From assembly GCA_025457915.1 (NCBI GenBank), contig JALOTL010000001.1:227022-291021 (forward strand): a stretch of DNA of 64,000 nucleotides. The letters are read 5' to 3'. The DNA comes from Spirochaetota bacterium. Lineage in GTDB: Bacteria > Spirochaetota > UBA4802 > UBA5550. Both the position numbers and the translations under genes were made by a program. Shown here one piece after another: positions 40,812-50,534 of the stretch (its first letter is position 1; the number at the start of each line of letters is the position of its first letter). Below the pieces are notes generated by a model, which saw only the letters and a list, made by a program, of their open reading frames with translations, ran no database searches and was not told the DNA's origin.

Positions 40812-41064
40812 TGAAAAAATTGAGTTTGAATTATTATGTTAACAGGCCGCATTTCTGCTGATTTTTGCGGTAATATTGTGATTGGATTTTTTTTAACGAT
40901 GATCGTTCAATTATCTCATCATGACGAGGCAGCGGATAATTATTTGGAGATGAAAAATGAATTTTAGTGTAATTTTGTTGACATTAATAAACATGGCTTA
41001 GATAAAGGTAGGCAACTAGCTATTGTTGCTGCATATTTTTATCCAATCAAACAGGAGGACTCCT

Positions 41065-43182
41065 ATGAATCTTGCAGGATCATACGGCGTGCCTGCAAAT
41101 GACGTGACGAGGGAATTCTATTTCAATGTCGGCGGGCCGCACGGTTTTATGAGATGGGGAATTTACATCTTCATGTTTGCGGCGGTTTTTTATCTTATCT
41201 ACACGGTTGTCAAAAGAATCAGGATTTGGAGAAAGGGCAAACCCGAACTTCGAACCGATTATCCGGAAAAGAGGATACTGGCCGTAATCAAATATGTTAT
41301 ACTTCAATTTAAAATCCTGAGAGAAAGCTATGCGGGCCTTATGCACGCCAGCATATTCTTCGGTTTCGTCGTACTGTTTGTCGTTACCATGATAATAGTC
41401 GTACAGGAGGACCTCACCGGTCTTTTTTTCCACTATCATTTCATCCACGGCAATTTTTACCTGATCTGGTCGCTTTTCGGAGACCTGTTCGGAATGGTGG
41501 TGTTGATAGGATTGGGGATGGCGATATACAGAAGGTATGTCTTAAAGCCGAGCAGGCTCGATACCAAACCGATAGATACGTTCGCGCTGATTCTCATCAC
41601 GCTTATAATCATCAGCGGGTTCACAAACGAAGCCATGAGGATAGCCATCACCGGCTTTCCTAAATTCGAGGTATGGTCTCCATTCGGATACGTCCTTGCC
41701 ATACCTTTTTCAATTTTCAATACCGAGGCATTGAGGTCGATGCACTATGTCAACTGGTGGGTGCATATGATCGGCGCCTTTTCCTTTATTGGGCTCGTGG
41801 CATCCGACAAGATCGGGCACATTCTCATTTCTTCTCTGAATGTTTACTACATGAATCTTGATAATGAGAATCCTGCAACGAAATACGCGCTGCCGGTAAT
41901 AAATCCTGCCGAATTTGAGACAGCCGAGAGCTTCGGCGTTTCAAGCGTCGAGCAGTATACCTGGAAACAGCTCATGGACGGGGATGCATGCACAAGGTGC
42001 GGAAGGTGCCAGGACAACTGCCCGGCATACCTGACGGAGAAGCCCCTGTCCCCGAAAAAGATAATCAACGACGTCAAGGACAACATGGACGAGAGGATTC
42101 CCAAGCTCATGCTTGCCGAAGATCCGGCCACTGTCGAGTCAACCCCTCTCATAGACGGTTCGGTCCTGTCCGACGAGTTCTGGTCATGTACGAACTGCGC
42201 GGCATGCATGGAGGCCTGTCCGGTCAACATAGAGCATGTCCCGAAGATGATAGACATGAGGAGATACAAAATTCTCATGGAAGGCGACATGGCGCCCGAG
42301 CTCCAGACTTCCTTCATGAACATGGAAAACAACTACAATCCGTACGGATTCGCTTTCGCCGAAAGGGGCGCGTGGGTGCCTGCGGAACTCGGAGTCAAGA
42401 CACTGGCCGAGGATCCGGAGGTGGATTACGTTTACTTTGTGGGATGCGCGGCATCCTATGACAAGAGAAACCAGAAGGTCGGGATCGCGCTTCTGAACAT
42501 CATGAAGAAGGCCGGCCTGAAGGTCGGCATCCTCGGAGGCGAAGAGGCATGCTGCGGTGATTCGGCGATGAGGGGCGGTAACGAGTATCTTTTCCATTCG
42601 CTTGCCACTCAGAACCTTGAGACCTTCAAGTCATACGGGATCAAAAAAATCGTCATGACCTGTCCGCACGGATATAACATGCTTAAGAAGGAATACAAGA
42701 AGTTTGCAAAGGTCGGCAAGAACATGGACGGCAATCCTCTCGAGCACAATTTCGAGGTATACCATCACACCGAGATAATTTCCGATCTTATAACGAGCGG
42801 AAAGATCAAGCTGAAAGAGGCCCTGAGCGAGAAGATCACCTATCATGATTCATGTTTTCTTGGAAGGTATAACGAAATATACAACCAGCCGAGGGACATC
42901 ATCAAGGCGATACCAGGGGCCGATTATGTCGAGATGAGCAGGCACCATGACAAGAGCTTCTGCTGCGGCGCGGGAGGAGCGAGGATGTGGATAGAGGAAC
43001 ATCTGGGCTCAAGGGTTAACCAGTTCAGAACAAAGGACGCCCAGGCAAGCGGGGCCACCAAAATCGGTACCGCGTGTCCCTTCTGTCTAACAATGCTGTC
43101 GGACGGAGCCAACGAGCTCGACATCCAGAACCTCCAGTCTTTTGATCTGGCGGAGCTGGTTTACAACGCGATGGAAAAATAG
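41065..43182 (+). CDS. Membrane-bound HdrD-like Fe-S oxidoreductase (b-type cytochrome fusion, EMO-type)
   Basis: 705 residues from ATG 41065 with AGGAGG 8 bases upstream (the track uses an upstream TTG). About five to six TM helices with conserved His (residues about 25-270) form a NarI-like cytochrome b part. Two [4Fe-4S] motifs follow (CTRCGRCQDNCPAY and CTNCAACMEACPVN), then two CCG domains (EEACCGDSAMRGG; HDSCFLGR, SFCCGAGGARMW, CPFCLTML). Relatives carry electrons between electron-transfer flavoprotein and menaquinone in anaerobes. No etf genes are adjacent, so the partner is inferred. Confidence 0.88.
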   Translation: MNLAGSYGVPANDVTREFYFNVGGPHGFMRWGIYIFMFAAVFYLIYTVVKRIRIWRKGKPELRTDYPEKRILAVIKYVILQFKILRESYAGLMHASIFFGFVVLFVVTMIIVVQEDLTGLFFHYHFIHGNFYLIWSLFGDLFGMVVLIGLGMAIYRRYVLKPSRLDTKPIDTFALILITLIIISGFTNEAMRIAITGFPKFEVWSPFGYVLAIPFSIFNTEALRSMHYVNWWVHMIGAFSFIGLVASDKIGHILISSLNVYYMNLDNENPATKYALPVINPAEFETAESFGVSSVEQYTWKQLMDGDACTRCGRCQDNCPAYLTEKPLSPKKIINDVKDNMDERIPKLMLAEDPATVESTPLIDGSVLSDEFWSCTNCAACMEACPVNIEHVPKMIDMRRYKILMEGDMAPELQTSFMNMENNYNPYGFAFAERGAWVPAELGVKTLAEDPEVDYVYFVGCAASYDKRNQKVGIALLNIMKKAGLKVGILGGEEACCGDSAMRGGNEYLFHSLATQNLETFKSYGIKKIVMTCPHGYNMLKKEYKKFAKVGKNMDGNPLEHNFEVYHHTEIISDLITSGKIKLKEALSEKITYHDSCFLGRYNEIYNQPRDIIKAIPGADYVEMSRHHDKSFCCGAGGARMWIEEHLGSRVNQFRTKDAQASGATKIGTACPFCLTMLSDGANELDIQNLQSFDLAELVYNAMEK

Positions 43183-43229: not shown

Positions 43230-43261
43230 TCCTGATTTAATCCCACTTTCATTTGGTCCAT

Positions 43262-44032
43262 ATGATAGAACTTGATAACGTGTCCCTTTATTTCCCCGGC
43301 GGTAAAAAAATCATCAATGATGTATCCTGGAACATAGGAGAGAGGGAGAGCTGGGTGCTTTTCGGAAAAAACGGTTCCGGCAAAACAAAGCTTTTGGAAA
43401 TGATCTCCGGGTACATCAGTCCCAGCAATGGATCAGTCAGAAGGAGGTTTTCCGAAGAGGTTTATGATCTGAGGGACTTCAGAAAACGTATTGGCCATGT
43501 TGGAAGTAAGGTAAGGGACATGTTTTTACCAGGGGAGAGAATCATAGATGTCGTTACGAGCGGATATTACGGTTCAATAGGACTTTATGAAGATCCGGAA
43601 AAATTTATGATGGAAAAATCCATGACGTTGATCGAGTCCGCCTTGCCGCCGCACAGGGAGAACGATCCTTTTTCAAATCTGTCTGACGGAGAAAAACAGA
43701 GGGTCATGATAGCCAGGTCGATGGTCAATGAACCATCAGTACTGATCCTCGATGAGCCGTGCGAGGGACTGGACCTGGCGGCAAGGGAGGATGTGTTGTC
43801 GTTGATTGACGGCATCGCGGCTGCCGGCAGGACTTCAGTGATATATGTAACGCACCACGTGGAAGAGATCACGGAAGCATTCAGAAACATTTTCATCATA
43901 GATGAAGGAAAATGCAGATTCAAGGGAGACATCGAAGACGGCTTGAGTGAATCGTTATTGAGCGATATTTATAAGAGGAGTATACGAATCATGAAATTAT
44001 CCGGCAGGTTCCATGCCATGGTTGAAAGATGA
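43262..44032 (+). CDS. Orphan ABC-type ATPase (ModF/PhrA-like)
   Basis: 256 residues from ATG 43262 (the track uses a TTG 9 bases upstream). Walker A is LFGKNGSGKTKLLEM, signature LSDGEKQRVMIARSM (LSDGE instead of LSGGQ), Walker B ILILDEPCEGLD-like and H-loop VTHHVEE. The GYISPSNGSV and GLDLAAREDVL features resemble ModF-type single-domain ATPases. No permease or binding protein is next to it, so it may energise a distant transporter or have a non-transport role. Confidence 0.82.
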   Translation: MIELDNVSLYFPGGKKIINDVSWNIGERESWVLFGKNGSGKTKLLEMISGYISPSNGSVRRRFSEEVYDLRDFRKRIGHVGSKVRDMFLPGERIIDVVTSGYYGSIGLYEDPEKFMMEKSMTLIESALPPHRENDPFSNLSDGEKQRVMIARSMVNEPSVLILDEPCEGLDLAAREDVLSLIDGIAAAGRTSVIYVTHHVEEITEAFRNIFIIDEGKCRFKGDIEDGLSESLLSDIYKRSIRIMKLSGRFHAMVER

Positions 44033-44037
44033 GGGGA

Positions 44038-46254
44038 TCAGGAATGCGCGGATATTCTGAAATATATCATTGCCGAAACGATCAACGCGATATTTATTCC
44101 GATTGAAGGCCCGATGCCGAAATGCGGGATTAAGAACAGTGCCGTCAAAATTGAACCGATCATTGCGCCAAGATTATCGGTCGAATATAAAAAGGATGCT
44201 GCATCCTGATGGTCTTCCGGGTCCAGGCAGGCATACAGTGAAGCAAACAGGCCGCCGAAAACAGTTGAAAGAAAAAGAATAAGGAACCAGAATATCGTTT
44301 CAGCCCTTGATTCAAGGAATAAAAAAACAGAAAGTAAACCCAGCACCAGAAAAGCGAACATTGGAACAGATGACAGCCTGAACCTGTTTGCAGAATAACT
44401 CCCGGATGCAAGCCCGAACATGAATAGCGCATTGATGAGGGATATCCTGTAGAACATTATTCCGAAAAAGGTCTGGTAAAGCATCAGCATCAGCAGCATG
44501 AATGAAATACTGGTGAAGCCTACCGTAAATATGGATACCGCGACGGAAAATTTTTTTCTTCCATATGTATTCCATATACGAAAAAATACCGGTATCACGA
44601 TTGCGGCCGCAAGCAGGGGTAAAAGATAATACAGTCTCAGCAGCCGGTATACGATACCCCCCTCTTCTTCCATCAGGAGCATGTTGTAATTCCAATAAGC
44701 CCTCGGGTTCAGGTCGAGATTTTCCTGCGCCATATGAATTCCTGCCGTTATATTTTTCTGGAAATAATCCAGCTGTGATTTTTCAAACATCATTTTTAAT
44801 TCATCCGGTGTATAGTTCAGGATCAATCCCTCGTCAAGGTTTCTGAAATCCAGGGTCTTAAACCGCTTTGCGTATCTTTCTATCAAAACTTCAGGGGAAG
44901 GGGGTAAAGATTCCCTGTCCGCAGATCCAATCAGATAAACCGTGTCTCCGGTCGTATTCATCGTATAGGGGAAAGAGCGCTTGTATGCTTTCAATATCGA
45001 TGATATGTAATTTTTAAGATCTGCGTTCATTATATTTGCAAATCCCTTGAGCGACGTCAGCATGAACCCGCCGTCATTCAGCCTGCTTTTACAGAGGGAA
45101 TAAAATTCCGCGGTAAAAAGCCTGTTCAGCATGGTGTTTTCGGGATGCGGCGGAAAGCACAGGATTATGTCGAACTTTTCCCCGTTGTTTGAAAGAAACG
45201 CCCTTGCATCTTCATAATGAATTCTAAAGCCGCTTGATTTAGACAGGACGGGATAGAATCTTCCCCTGTATTTTTCACTTATCCTCCAAAGGTCCGGGTC
45301 AAGTTCGACGCAGCTGATTTCTCTGACGCCGGTTTTCAGGAGGTTCAGCGGAAGCGAGCCGGGGCTGCCGCCCAGCAGAAGGATTTTTTCGTCTTTTTTC
45401 GTCCTGAGCGACTGTATCAGGTGGAAGACCTGGCGCATGTCACCCGCATCCGGGAGGGAATAATAGTATAGTCTGTTGCCGTAGATGTTGATTATTTCAT
45501 TCTGCTGGGATTCCACGAAAATGGTCTGGTACCTGCTCCTCCATGATTCGATAAGGGTGCCGGCGCCTGTTTTGTTCCATGACAGGCTGTTAATATTTTT
45601 TTCTAAATAAGGGGACCACAGGAACAGGATAACCGGCGGAAGAATTAATAATAACAGCGCCCTTTTCCCGGATTTTAAAGCTATATATAAAAACGGGCAA
45701 AAAAGCAGAACCGCACCTGTTTCCAGCGGATTCATGAAATTTATTATCAAAAAGGAAAAGGCCAATCCTCCTGCGAATGAACCGGCTGATTCCACGAAAT
45801 AGATCCTGCCGCCGGATGCTATATCGTCTGCAGGTGATATCAGAAAAACAAGTGCCGGATAAAGATATCCGGCCAGATATGATACCGGGAATGTAAAGAC
45901 GCCGGCGAGCAAAAATTCCGCTGACAGGGAATAATATGTTCCTGGCATCCTGGGGAAAATAAAAGGGATAAGCCCGGTCAGGATCACCGACGACAGGAAC
46001 AGGAGCGGGAAAACGGCAAGAAGAAATGGAAGGGATGCCGACCGGCAGCCTGTTTTTCCCCTGTTTATTTTTGCTCCCAGAAAAAGTCCCAGGAACCATG
46101 AGAAAAAAATAATGGATACAATAAGTTCATTGCCGCGGAAAACATTCAGGAGCTCGCGTATTATTATTACCTGGGATATGGCCGAAGCGAATCCTGCATA
46201 GAATGAGAAGAGCAGCACTTCATTCCGGCTGAACCGTTGTTCCGGGATTTTCAT
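44038..46254 (-). CDS. Spermidine synthase-like fused membrane protein of the AmmeMemoRadiSam cluster
   Basis: 738 residues. About seven TM helices precede a Rossmann methyltransferase/spermidine-synthase-like domain (about 225-450; KILLLGGSPGSLPLNLLK, CVELDPDLWRISEKY, HYEDARAFL), and about seven more TM helices follow. The catalytic D-x-x-D-P segment of spermidine synthases is replaced by DIILCFPPHP, so aminopropyl transfer is doubtful. The stop is 1 base from the next gene upstream in the operon, the radical SAM enzyme, suggesting an operon with it and the MEMO-AMMECR1 fusion. Confidence 0.82.
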   Translation of the reverse strand: MKIPEQRFSRNEVLLFSFYAGFASAISQVIIIRELLNVFRGNELIVSIIFFSWFLGLFLGAKINRGKTGCRSASLPFLLAVFPLLFLSSVILTGLIPFIFPRMPGTYYSLSAEFLLAGVFTFPVSYLAGYLYPALVFLISPADDIASGGRIYFVESAGSFAGGLAFSFLIINFMNPLETGAVLLFCPFLYIALKSGKRALLLLILPPVILFLWSPYLEKNINSLSWNKTGAGTLIESWRSRYQTIFVESQQNEIINIYGNRLYYYSLPDAGDMRQVFHLIQSLRTKKDEKILLLGGSPGSLPLNLLKTGVREISCVELDPDLWRISEKYRGRFYPVLSKSSGFRIHYEDARAFLSNNGEKFDIILCFPPHPENTMLNRLFTAEFYSLCKSRLNDGGFMLTSLKGFANIMNADLKNYISSILKAYKRSFPYTMNTTGDTVYLIGSADRESLPPSPEVLIERYAKRFKTLDFRNLDEGLILNYTPDELKMMFEKSQLDYFQKNITAGIHMAQENLDLNPRAYWNYNMLLMEEEGGIVYRLLRLYYLLPLLAAAIVIPVFFRIWNTYGRKKFSVAVSIFTVGFTSISFMLLMLMLYQTFFGIMFYRISLINALFMFGLASGSYSANRFRLSSVPMFAFLVLGLLSVFLFLESRAETIFWFLILFLSTVFGGLFASLYACLDPEDHQDAASFLYSTDNLGAMIGSILTALFLIPHFGIGPSIGINIALIVSAMIYFRISAHS

Positions 46255-46255
46255 T

Positions 46256-47389
46256 TCAGGCCCATACGCCTGGAATTTTTTTTCCGCAATGCGGGCACCT
46301 TCCGTTTTTTACGCCGTTTTCAATGTGAAAGTAGCCGCTTCTTTTTATGATCATTTTTTTGCACGAGTGACAGAACGTATTTTCAAACTCGTGGCCGGGT
46401 ACGTTTCCGACATACGCGTAATTCAGCCCCTCGGACAATGCCGTTTCCCTGCATAGTTCAAGCGTCCTCACCGGTGTCGGCGGGAGGTTTTTAATAAGGT
46501 ACATGGACCGGAACCTCGTAAAATGCACGGGCACGTCAGGTGAAAGGTTCGTCCTGATCCATCTGGACATTTTTTTTATATCCTGCATGGAATCGTTCAT
46601 GGTCGGAATTATCAGTACTATTATTTCCAGCCATTTTTTCCCTTTGTAAACAGCTTCCAGTGTATTGAGAACGGGCTTAAGGGATCCGCTGCACGTGTCG
46701 CTGTAGAATTTTTCTGAAAACGATTTGAGGTCTATCCTCACCGCGTCGAGGTTTTTTATGAGGTCCGCAGCGGCTTTTTGCTGAATGTATCCGTTCGACA
46801 CGATTACGGGCCGTATGCCCTTTGATTTTGCGGACCTGGACGTGTCTATTACATACTCGGCCTGTATGATCGGCTCATTGTAGGTGAAGGCCAGGACCCT
46901 GGAGCCGGAAGCGGCCGCCCTGGACGCCAGGGAATCCGGCAGGATTTTTTCTGAGTCAACATCATCTGGATTTGATTGGGAAAGCTGCCAGTTCTGGCAG
47001 AATTTACATGAGAAGTTGCATCCGGCCGTCGCTACCGACATGGCCATGGAACCGGGAAGGAAGTGGTAGAATGGTTTTTTTTCGACCGGGTCCACGTTCA
47101 ATGCCGCAATTCTTGAGTAGACGATCGAATACAGCGTTCCACCGCGGTTTTCCCTGGCCCTGCACTGGCCCCTGTCGCCGTTCCTGAGAACGCATTCGTT
47201 CGGGCAAAGGAGGCACCTGACCCTGCCGCCTTCGAGCTTCTGCCAGTGGAGAGCTCTGAAGGCATAATCGCCGCCGGGACCGGCGTGTAATTTTCCGCAT
47301 TTTCCGTCATGAATGGCTGGACAGATGAACAGGGAAAGTACGGACGCGCCGTATTTCAGAAATTTTCTCCTGTCCATTTTTTCATTCAT
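46256..47389 (-). CDS. AmmeMemoRadiSam-system radical SAM enzyme with Tat-like signal
   Basis: 377 residues. The N-terminus MDRRKFLKYGASVLSLFICPA has a twin-arginine motif (RRKFLK) and a hydrophobic stretch. CLLCPNECVLRNGDRGQC is a cysteine-rich region, and the radical SAM site is ATAGCNFSCKFCQNWQLSQ (CxxxCxxC). The C-terminus has two zinc-type pairs, FCHSCKKMI and RCPHCGKKI. GAGG is 7 bases before the ATG. The start overlaps the preceding MEMO-AMMECR1 gene by 8 bases. Such enzymes belong to a three-part system of unknown chemistry. Confidence 0.9.
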   Translation of the reverse strand: MNEKMDRRKFLKYGASVLSLFICPAIHDGKCGKLHAGPGGDYAFRALHWQKLEGGRVRCLLCPNECVLRNGDRGQCRARENRGGTLYSIVYSRIAALNVDPVEKKPFYHFLPGSMAMSVATAGCNFSCKFCQNWQLSQSNPDDVDSEKILPDSLASRAAASGSRVLAFTYNEPIIQAEYVIDTSRSAKSKGIRPVIVSNGYIQQKAAADLIKNLDAVRIDLKSFSEKFYSDTCSGSLKPVLNTLEAVYKGKKWLEIIVLIIPTMNDSMQDIKKMSRWIRTNLSPDVPVHFTRFRSMYLIKNLPPTPVRTLELCRETALSEGLNYAYVGNVPGHEFENTFCHSCKKMIIKRSGYFHIENGVKNGRCPHCGKKIPGVWA

Positions 47390-48905
47390 TATTATCCTCG
47401 CTGAAAACTATCGCTTCAAACCTGTATAAACTGGCGCCCTTTTTCCATTCGCCCTCCGCTAGCCCCGCCTTTCTGCAGAGATTGGCCAGGTACTGGTCAA
47501 GGTCCCAGTTCCATTCAACCGCTACTTGGGGAAGGAAAATACCTTTGCGCATTCCTTTTTCAATAATTAATCCGTCCCTGCCGATCGAGATTTCATCGAC
47601 GGATTTCACCGGTTCCGGGGGCGTCAGCACTGATATCTCGAGCTTCAAATCCCTGAATTCGTTTTTTGCCAGGGGATTGAATCTCGGGTCCCTGAATCCT
47701 GCGTTGAATGAATTGTCAAGCACGGCCTTGTAAAGCGGCTTCAGTCCCTCGATATAACCGATACAGCCCCTTAGCTCTCCGGCTTTTTTTATTGTCACAA
47801 AGACCCCCGCCCTGGTCTTACAGGATGCAGGGATCTGTGATTTGTCCGGGTTGTAGGGATTATTCCGGAAAAGCCTGCTTTCGAGATTTTTTCTCGCGAT
47901 CCCGAGCAGAAATTTTTTGTCCGAATTGCTTAAAAAATCCCTCGGGCGCGCCTCTGCCTCTGCGGTTCCTATTTTCCCGCATATGAAAATTGCCGCATAG
48001 CTTACAGTGTTTTTAAAATCCCCGGTAATATTCCCGGATGTGTTGTAGTCTATTATGCCGGCCTTGAACCCGTTAATGGGAAGGGAAACGGCGATCAAAA
48101 TAGGATTTCTGCCGCAGATTGTGGCGCCAGTATTGTCCAGGTATTTTGAAAAACCTTCAGGGTCTTTCTTTTTGATGAATCCTATTGCGCCGAAATCGAG
48201 TTTTTTTATTTTTTCACGAACGACTTTATCTGGACCGGCGAACGGGGTGAATCCGAATCTCTCCCCGTAGTGTGTGAAATCCGAGCTGACGATCAGCAGG
48301 GGATTTTTGAAAGATGACAGCGCTGCAGCAATGGTTCGCGCGATGCTTTCAGATTCGGCCGGGCCGATGTCTCCCACCAGTATCGGGAGGACCGGGGTTT
48401 TACGCAGCGCGGTTTTTTCATAGAGTCCCTGGATCAGGGGAAGGTGTATTTCTATAGCGTGTTCGTTTTCAAACGCGCCTCCGTCTGTCCGGAACAGGCT
48501 GTTTTTCAGCAGCAACGGGTTGATGTCTTTCGCCGTTTTGATTCTGCCCAGCGGCGTCTCGAAGAATTCAGCCGGATGAAGCGCGCAGCCCTTTATGCGG
48601 CCGCGGTGCGACGGGGCCATGATCAATATGACGTCGGGCGCTTTATTTTTAACCGACTCGTATCCATTCGCCGCAACCTGGCCGGAATACTGGTAGCCTG
48701 CATGGGGCAGGATGAGAACCAACGGCGAGCAGGATGAATTTACGGGCATGGTTTTTTTATAAAGGGAGCTGATGGTTTTTTCAAGCCGCACCGGATCGGA
48801 TGGATACCATGTGCCTGCAAGGGATGCCGATTTGACCTCACGGCCGCTTTTTGAATTGCAGACGAGGAAGCCGACAAAAACGATAAAAATAAATATTTTT
48901 TTCAT
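47382..48905 (-). CDS. Exported MEMO-AMMECR1 fusion (AmmeMemoRadiSam proteins B and A)
   Basis: About 507 residues (ATG 48905; the track uses the TTG before it). A signal (KKIFIFIVFVGFLVCNSKSG, possible lipobox at LVC) precedes the MEMO domain (about 30-290; LAGTWYPSDPVRLEKTI, ILPHAGYQYSGQVAANGY, MAPSHRGRI, SSDFTHYGERFGF), related to class III extradiol dioxygenases. AMMECR1 follows (about 310-505; AGVFVTIKKAGELRGCIGYI, AGFRDPRFNPL). The gene heads the radical SAM and membrane genes. Reaction unknown. Confidence 0.9.
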   Translation of the reverse strand: MKKIFIFIVFVGFLVCNSKSGREVKSASLAGTWYPSDPVRLEKTISSLYKKTMPVNSSCSPLVLILPHAGYQYSGQVAANGYESVKNKAPDVILIMAPSHRGRIKGCALHPAEFFETPLGRIKTAKDINPLLLKNSLFRTDGGAFENEHAIEIHLPLIQGLYEKTALRKTPVLPILVGDIGPAESESIARTIAAALSSFKNPLLIVSSDFTHYGERFGFTPFAGPDKVVREKIKKLDFGAIGFIKKKDPEGFSKYLDNTGATICGRNPILIAVSLPINGFKAGIIDYNTSGNITGDFKNTVSYAAIFICGKIGTAEAEARPRDFLSNSDKKFLLGIARKNLESRLFRNNPYNPDKSQIPASCKTRAGVFVTIKKAGELRGCIGYIEGLKPLYKAVLDNSFNAGFRDPRFNPLAKNEFRDLKLEISVLTPPEPVKSVDEISIGRDGLIIEKGMRKGIFLPQVAVEWNWDLDQYLANLCRKAGLAEGEWKKGASLYRFEAIVFSEDNNE

Positions 48906-48998
48906 CAATGATCACTCCGCGGTCAGCATGTTCGTGGCGCCTGGATTCGGCTTTACTGTATTAATCTGCCTTTAAAAGCGATGCCAGTCAAATAAAAA

Positions 48999-50534
48999 TC
49001 AGTTTTTCGCCCTGATGATATATTTCTGATGGATATAGATCAGAAGAATCACCAGTGCAAAAAGTGAATAGCCAAGCGGGAGCTGTCCTGTTACCCCGAA
49101 TCCGATTTCATATGAATGGATGATTCCGAAATATGAACAGACAATCAGCGGGATAGTCCAGAAGAAAGCCTTCAGGAAGTCTTTTTCGATCAGGTATGCG
49201 GCCACAGCGGTGATGAACATCGAGGAAAAAAGCGCTCCCTCGGAAAAGGTGAATATTCCTTTAAGATGGGGCATCGCTCCGGATATCAGCTCATTCATCT
49301 GCGCGATCGAGTAACCACCCCGGCTGTTGATGTATTGCCTTAAAAGCGAAAGGCCCCAGGCGGAGATGGCAGGCATGAGTCCCAGAGCAACCGCCGGGGC
49401 GTGCTCCTTCGGGGTAGTCTGAAAGGCCTGGGCAGTGATTATAACGCCGATCCAGAGGAGTATCGGATACCCGGCCTCCAGCGGAATGAGGGAAACGATG
49501 ACGCTCATCATCCCCGTGAAGCAGATAAGAGTGATTACGGTTCCGTTTATTATCGAGTACCCGGATCTTGCTCCGAGGCCCTTCCATCCCGGGTGTCCTA
49601 TGTAAACGGTCGTCGGGAAAGGGGACCCGAAAAAGGAACCGATGATGGTCCCTATCCCGTTCATCGCCAGGGCCGGCATGGCCGGGTATTCATCGCCCGC
49701 GGCGGATGCTGATTCAAGGTTCTGGAGGGTGCCGAAAAAAGCCATGAGCCCCATCGGTATTGATACTGAAAGATACGGCAGGAACTGGCCCGGTTCTATT
49801 CCTTTGACCAGGTCAAACAGGACGAATCCGGGAAAATAGAAAGTAAGGGTCTCGGTTGATTTGACCAGCGCGTTTTTATCCATGGCCCCGATGGACCAGG
49901 CCATTATCGACCCGATTACAAGGGCGTACAGCCCGGCGGGAATCCTGAACGGAAGTTTTACCCTGGAAAAGTATTCAACCATTATGAATGCGAGCGGTAT
50001 GAAGGATATTAAGGGCCTGTCCCATATTTTTATGGTCTGCTCGATGGCAATGAAGACAATGGCGATTCCGGCAAGCGTGGACAGCAGTGCCGCCCTCGGG
50101 GTCAGCTTCCTGATCCTGCCGCCGATAAACGCACCTATGGCCTCGAAAAAACCGCTGATGAAACAACTGATTACCCCCAGCTTCCATGCGAAATCCGCAT
50201 CTTTGGTCTGGAGATAAGCCGGAGCGATGATCAGGGAAAAAAAAGCCAGGAGGCTGACCGTATTTATTCCGTACGGGAGCGCCGTAACGTCGTTTCTCCT
50301 TTCCTTTTTCGCCAGCCTTCTTGCCTGGAAGGAATAAAATAAATTACCTGCGAGAACTGAAAGCGAAGTGCCGGGCAGTATCTTTCCGAAAACCAGTTCT
50401 GCAGGCATGCCTATCGACAGGCAGAGACCTGTTATATAAAGAAGGTTGACCAGGTTGTCTATAAACAATCCGATGAATCCGTCAAAGTCCCCTTTTACGA
50501 AAAATGGATAGCTGTATGATCCGCCTCGAGTCAT
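48999..50534 (-). CDS. NCS2-type purine/pyrimidine permease-like protein
   Basis: 511 residues with about 12-14 TM helices. Segments such as LVNLLYITGLCLSIGMPAEL, NDVTALPYGINTVSLLAFFS, QNLESASAAGDEYPAMPALA and IGTIIGSFFGSPFPTTVYIGH match the NCS2 (xanthine/uracil) fold, in which QNLExxSAAG holds the substrate Glu. It probably imports a nucleobase or related anion. No nucleobase-degradation gene is nearby. Confidence 0.8.
   Translation of the reverse strand: MTRGGSYSYPFFVKGDFDGFIGLFIDNLVNLLYITGLCLSIGMPAELVFGKILPGTSLSVLAGNLFYSFQARRLAKKERRNDVTALPYGINTVSLLAFFSLIIAPAYLQTKDADFAWKLGVISCFISGFFEAIGAFIGGRIRKLTPRAALLSTLAGIAIVFIAIEQTIKIWDRPLISFIPLAFIMVEYFSRVKLPFRIPAGLYALVIGSIMAWSIGAMDKNALVKSTETLTFYFPGFVLFDLVKGIEPGQFLPYLSVSIPMGLMAFFGTLQNLESASAAGDEYPAMPALAMNGIGTIIGSFFGSPFPTTVYIGHPGWKGLGARSGYSIINGTVITLICFTGMMSVIVSLIPLEAGYPILLWIGVIITAQAFQTTPKEHAPAVALGLMPAISAWGLSLLRQYINSRGGYSIAQMNELISGAMPHLKGIFTFSEGALFSSMFITAVAAYLIEKDFLKAFFWTIPLIVCSYFGIIHSYEIGFGVTGQLPLGYSLFALVILLIYIHQKYIIRAKN

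Follow-up and report, generated by a model that had tools for sequence, protein, structure and literature searches.

The AmmeMemoRadiSam system is represented by three protein families (TIGR04335, TIGR04336 and TIGR04337), and its standard copies carry no signal. The open-access papers found to name it each contain a single mention, in one of them as gene names only. Radical SAM chemistry requires SAM and a low-potential electron donor, and to our knowledge neither is known outside the cytoplasm; we know of no radical SAM enzyme that has been shown to act there, and searches of the open-access literature (subscription journals were not covered) turned up no description of an AmmeMemoRadiSam system that is exported or of a radical SAM enzyme in the periplasm. 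The closest relative of the radical SAM component by sequence is pyruvate formate-lyase activase, which is also the closest solved structure to a modelled orthologue (3cb8, E 3.8e-14). The two share a fold, but the activating enzyme is cytoplasmic, has no signal, lacks the N- and C-terminal four-cysteine motifs and has no MEMO or AMMECR1 partners. Human MEMO1 binds iron through H49, H81 and C244 (PMC11081632), and these ligands are shared with the MEMO domain discussed here; unlike this domain, the human protein (7kq8) is cytosolic and is not fused to AMMECR1. Finally, spermidine synthase and the fused MFS-spermidine synthases (NF037959) share the fold of a soluble domain in a third, membrane-bound protein of our locus. 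This protein differs from both in having lost the active-site aspartate motif, in having seven plus seven transmembrane (TM) segments, and in that its soluble domain is predicted to lie outside.

The locus was found in a stretch of 64,000 nucleotides from a Spirochaetota bacterium (contig JALOTL010000001.1), which we call the window. Three head-to-tail genes occupy the minus strand from 48908 to 44038 in the order MEMO-AMMECR1 fusion, radical SAM enzyme, membrane protein. This trio, its strand, its order and its tight spacing (8 bases of overlap between the first two genes, a 1-base gap between the last two) are as an earlier note on the sequence had them. The fusion starts at TTG 48908 or ATG 48905, and a start of the radical SAM enzyme at its second ATG (MDRRKFLKYG...) would turn the overlap into a 4-base gap. 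The main features are as follows.

43253-44032, plus strand: ABC ATPase gene, convergent with the membrane-protein gene
44038..46254, minus strand: membrane protein of 738 aa, 14 TM segments with an inserted spermidine-synthase-like domain (PF01564, NF037959, AF2)
44041..44625, minus strand: TM8-TM14 (AF2, topology)
44635..45573, minus strand: spermidine-synthase-fold domain, predicted outside (match to 1uir, E 4e-10)
45574..46227, minus strand: TM1-TM7 (AF2)
46256..47389, minus strand: AmmeMemoRadiSam radical SAM enzyme, 377 aa, Tat type (TIGR04337)
46286..46372, minus strand: C-terminal four-cysteine motif (C340, C343, C365, C368), invariant
46997..47020, minus strand: CX3CX2C radical SAM cluster motif (C124, C128, C131), invariant in alignments A1 and A4
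47162..47215, minus strand: N-terminal four-cysteine motif (C59, C62, C66, C76), invariant
47315..47377, minus strand: Tat-like signal MDRRKFLKYGASVLSLFICPA of the radical SAM enzyme, read from the sequence and conserved in orthologues
47382..48908, minus strand: MEMO-AMMECR1 fusion (AmmeMemoRadiSam proteins B and A in one chain), 508 aa (PF01875 199 bits, PF01871 181 bits)
47403..47900, minus strand: AMMECR1 domain with the invariant LRGCIG motif (PF01871)
47988..48827, minus strand: MEMO domain, equivalents of human H49, H81 and C244 all kept (alignment to 7kq8)
48843..48908, minus strand: N-terminal signal MMKKIFIFIVFVGFLVC of the fusion with a weak lipobox, from the sequence and orthologue signals

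The trio passes all three AmmeMemoRadiSam cut-offs, i.e. the radical SAM enzyme scores 373 bits with TIGR04337 (curated cut-off 220), the MEMO part 206 bits with TIGR04336 (cut-off 26) and the AMMECR1 part 181 bits with TIGR04335 (cut-off 99), and it keeps the catalytic and metal residues. The membrane protein scores 41.9 bits with PF01564 (cut-off 22.9) and 42.8 bits with NF037959 (cut-off 40). Directly upstream of the cluster there is a 511-aa polytopic membrane protein (48999-50534, minus strand) for which no Pfam or NCBIfam match was found at E 1e-3, and past the ABC ATPase gene there is a 719-aa HdrD/DsrK-like membrane protein (41023-43182, plus strand) that carries 4Fe-4S as well as two CCG domains rich in cysteine.

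What sets this locus apart from the standard system is that both the radical SAM enzyme and the fusion bear export signals, and we consider it likely that the three genes specify an AmmeMemoRadiSam system that works outside the cytoplasm, although export and activity there are inferred from sequence. The radical SAM enzyme begins with M(NEKM)DRRKFLKYGASVLSLFICPA and contains the twin-arginine motif DRRKFLK followed by a hydrophobic stretch; this signal, pointed out earlier, recurs in the orthologues with the same gene order. As the signal is of the Tat type, the enzyme could cross the membrane in the folded state and already carry its [4Fe-4S] cluster, and two TatC genes are present in the genome. 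The fusion has the secretion signal that had been claimed for it, as do orthologues, while the possible lipobox is weak in the window (FLVC, compared to L-[AS]-[GAS]-C) and good in several MEMO orthologues (LLSC, IISC, AIGC, AFAC, VLGC). Judging from these sequences, the chain is probably lipid-anchored and delivered to the same side as the radical SAM enzyme. The equivalents of the H/H/C iron ligands are kept in 77, 77 and 79 of 79 fusions, which is every row with a residue at the position; a regular-expression count had suggested that the cysteine is lost in most fusions, and the alignment ruled this out. The R and C of the LRGCIG motif are kept in 78/78 fusions. A resemblance of RGCIG to glycyl-radical motifs is conceivable, but this is no more than a guess.

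The same genome also encodes a second radical SAM enzyme (on C30) without signal, and a MEMO gene and an AMMECR1 gene (on C12), both signal-less, beside a coaBC-like gene. Since such signal-less paralogues share the genome, the presence of a signal depends on the individual copy and is not a trait of the organism's annotation. A third, diverged MEMO on C20 (L003 / L077) has a lipoprotein-type signal and is convergent with an AMMECR1-like lipoprotein, with no adjoining radical SAM gene.

The gene order is repeated in the sampled phylum (L036, L038-L041, L045, L047-L055; the third gene is missing in L042, and the fusion of L050 is broken by unknown bases), and every radical SAM enzyme of those loci carries RR or RK in a Tat-like motif. 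When 84,980 species genomes were scanned with these sequences, 80 loci from a wide range of phyla came up, nearly all with a signal; most signals are Tat, and Sec-like ones occur on the radical SAM enzymes of Omnitrophota and a few others. These counts do not measure prevalence, since the scan favours exported relatives. When one signal rule was applied to 230 distinct radical SAM copies, 124 had a signal (113 Tat-like, 11 Sec/TM), and these copies span about 20 named phyla. In a FastTree phylogeny of 229 copies, one branch (support 96) has all signal-bearing rows (123/123) on the same side. The clade on that side has 146 rows from about 20 phyla, and outside it the same rule scored 0/83, which argues that the window-type signal is not due to chance. 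Among the 23 clade rows called signal-less, the rule had missed a Tat-like motif in 10, 3 were cut by contig ends, 1 was the fused protein of L150 (see below) and 9 were signal-less. A strict rule for MEMO signals likewise called 14/60 exported-locus fusions signal-less, most of which clearly have signals when inspected by eye. A fusion or membrane-protein gene adjoins the radical SAM gene in 56/73 clade loci, compared to 0/28 of the others (Fisher p=1.6e-13; loci of at least 8 kb only).

The earlier note had named signal-less orthologues as one outcome that would refute export. With nine exceptions this outcome did not arise, and signals are general in orthologues of the same gene order. A subclade within the exported clade has no signal (L023, L027, L231, L232, L234, L240); its proteins start 7 residues before the CxxC, L240 being cut by a contig end, and it appears to have lost export. 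The nine signal-less members of the clade indicate that export can be lost. Exported-type radical SAM enzymes were also seen on two contigs labelled Aenigmatarchaeota (L119, L160), which may be binning errors. By prediction, then, a monophyletic and widespread extracytoplasmic branch of AmmeMemoRadiSam exists, distinguished from the standard system by its own clade and by the linked 14-TM protein, while the location of its proteins is unmeasured.

The third gene, previously described only as a large membrane protein, is indeed one. Its AF2 model (pLDDT 88, pTM 0.90) contains seven helices, a soluble domain and again seven helices, counting helix 544-597 as a pair of TM segments on either side of a charged break. 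TM1-6 are homologous to TM9-14 (hhalign 98.6%, E 7e-16), i.e. the protein has two homologous six-TM halves, as in the Major facilitator superfamily; no MFS fold was found among the 50 PDB matches listed. We predict a carrier-like, two-times-six-TM protein, in which the extra TM7 and TM8 hold the spermidine-synthase-fold domain. Lysine plus arginine amounts to 18.4 in the would-be inside loops and 4.0 in the would-be outside loops, with the same direction in 27/27 sequences, and this bias places the soluble domain outside, provided that TM7 and TM8 truly span the membrane. The charges of the TM6-7 and TM8-9 loops are not sufficient alone to place the domain, and the case rests on the TM-like hydropathy of TM7 and TM8 (1.76 and 2.01) together with the AF2 helices, so the outside location of this SAM-fold domain remains a prediction.

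It is possible, if doubtful, that the membrane protein faces outward as an aminopropyl- or methyltransferase for an envelope substrate and does not handle SAM for the radical SAM enzyme. The soluble domain has the full aminopropyltransferase fold of spermidine synthase and its adenine-side aspartate, D349, is nearly invariant. However, the active-site D-x-x-D-P is not conserved in the 27 sequences (FPPHP in the window, LPDP, MPEP and others elsewhere), and such a transferase would, for its own part, depend on SAM or decarboxylated SAM on the outer side.

Location evidence beyond the signal peptides comes from nine Tat-type radical SAM copies that have a CXXCH motif between the signal and the first CxxC, followed by a conserved distal histidine. 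The nine fall in one subclade that spans several phyla (FastTree), and the combination was found in 0/106 signal-less radical SAM copies. Covalent c-haem attachment occurs only outside the bacterial cytoplasm. The AF2 model of a CXXCH orthologue has the haem-motif loop at low confidence, therefore no haem-to-cluster distance is given. In addition, a planctomycete locus (L150:4565-6871, Planctomycetota) encodes MEMO, AMMECR1 and radical SAM domains as a single 768-aa chain behind one N-terminal signal, and lipoboxes are present in some Tat-type radical SAM enzymes and in many fusions. That the whole system is exported and acts at the envelope, as had been proposed, is supported by the orthologue signals, the gene order, L150 and the CXXCH motifs. 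Against extracytoplasmic action we note the need for SAM and a low-potential donor mentioned at the outset, the poor lipobox of the window, the absence of CXXCH from its own radical SAM enzyme and the nine signal-less clade members.

The N-terminal segments could instead be mere anchors, the catalytic domains being membrane-bound in the cytoplasm, as some Tat-like motifs may be weak, with RK or KR in place of RR, and some signals, including the window's, have no clear cleavage site. We regard this as improbable, since a positively charged N-terminus with one hydrophobic stretch places the next domain outside, and since the nine CXXCH copies, the AxA-like Sec signals of Omnitrophota and the lipoboxes of radical SAM and MEMO orthologues all speak against a cytoplasmic anchor. 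Still harder to defend is the idea that the proteins are exported with a non-catalytic radical SAM domain, a scavenging or sensing relic: no supply of SAM or reductant is known to us outside the cytoplasm, but the invariance of CX3CX2C, both four-cysteine motifs and the MEMO metal ligands across about 20 phyla indicates selection for catalysis, SAM cleavage itself being inferred.

A DUF362 protein, often Tat-signalled, precedes the exported radical SAM enzyme, in most cases as its immediate upstream neighbour, in about 28 loci (L102-L118, L121-L123, L127, L129, L135, L138, L147, L153, L155, L163, L174). Five Omnitrophota loci (L149, L152, L165, L170, L173) have a DsbD_2 (CcdA-like) gene beside a Sec-type radical SAM gene, and a Sec route would imply Fe-S insertion after export. 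Fer4_5 membrane polyferredoxins adjoin the radical SAM gene in about five loci. DUF362, DsbD_2 and Fer4_5 proteins are candidate electron suppliers or substrates, which has not been shown. A further neighbour cluster in 72 loci was discarded, as it looked like reverse-frame translation.

Returning to the extracytoplasmic reading, we infer that the radical SAM enzyme and MEMO-AMMECR1 act jointly on a substrate in the envelope, the enzyme forming its 5'-deoxyadenosyl radical on the outer side of the inner membrane. There, the carrier-like protein might supply SAM, or bind and return its products, its altered aminopropyltransferase domain serving as a nucleoside-binding site; there is no direct test of this. 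Electrons may come from lineage-specific donors, either the c-haem built into the radical SAM enzyme or DsbD-type or polyferredoxin membrane proteins, and the ordinary job would be left to the cytoplasmic copies in the same genome. The complete scheme, in which a carrier delivers SAM through the membrane to an outward SAM-fold domain, the exported [4Fe-4S] enzyme receives its electrons from a c-haem or from a thiol/ferredoxin relay, and this enzyme modifies an envelope molecule together with MEMO-AMMECR1, is speculative and we put it forward tentatively.

If a radical SAM branch does work outside, SAM must be exported and a strong reductant must be delivered to the envelope. The function of AmmeMemoRadiSam is partly shared by humans, as MEMO1 and AMMECR1, and the exported copies would separate this function from cytoplasmic metabolism, which may make its substrate easier to find.
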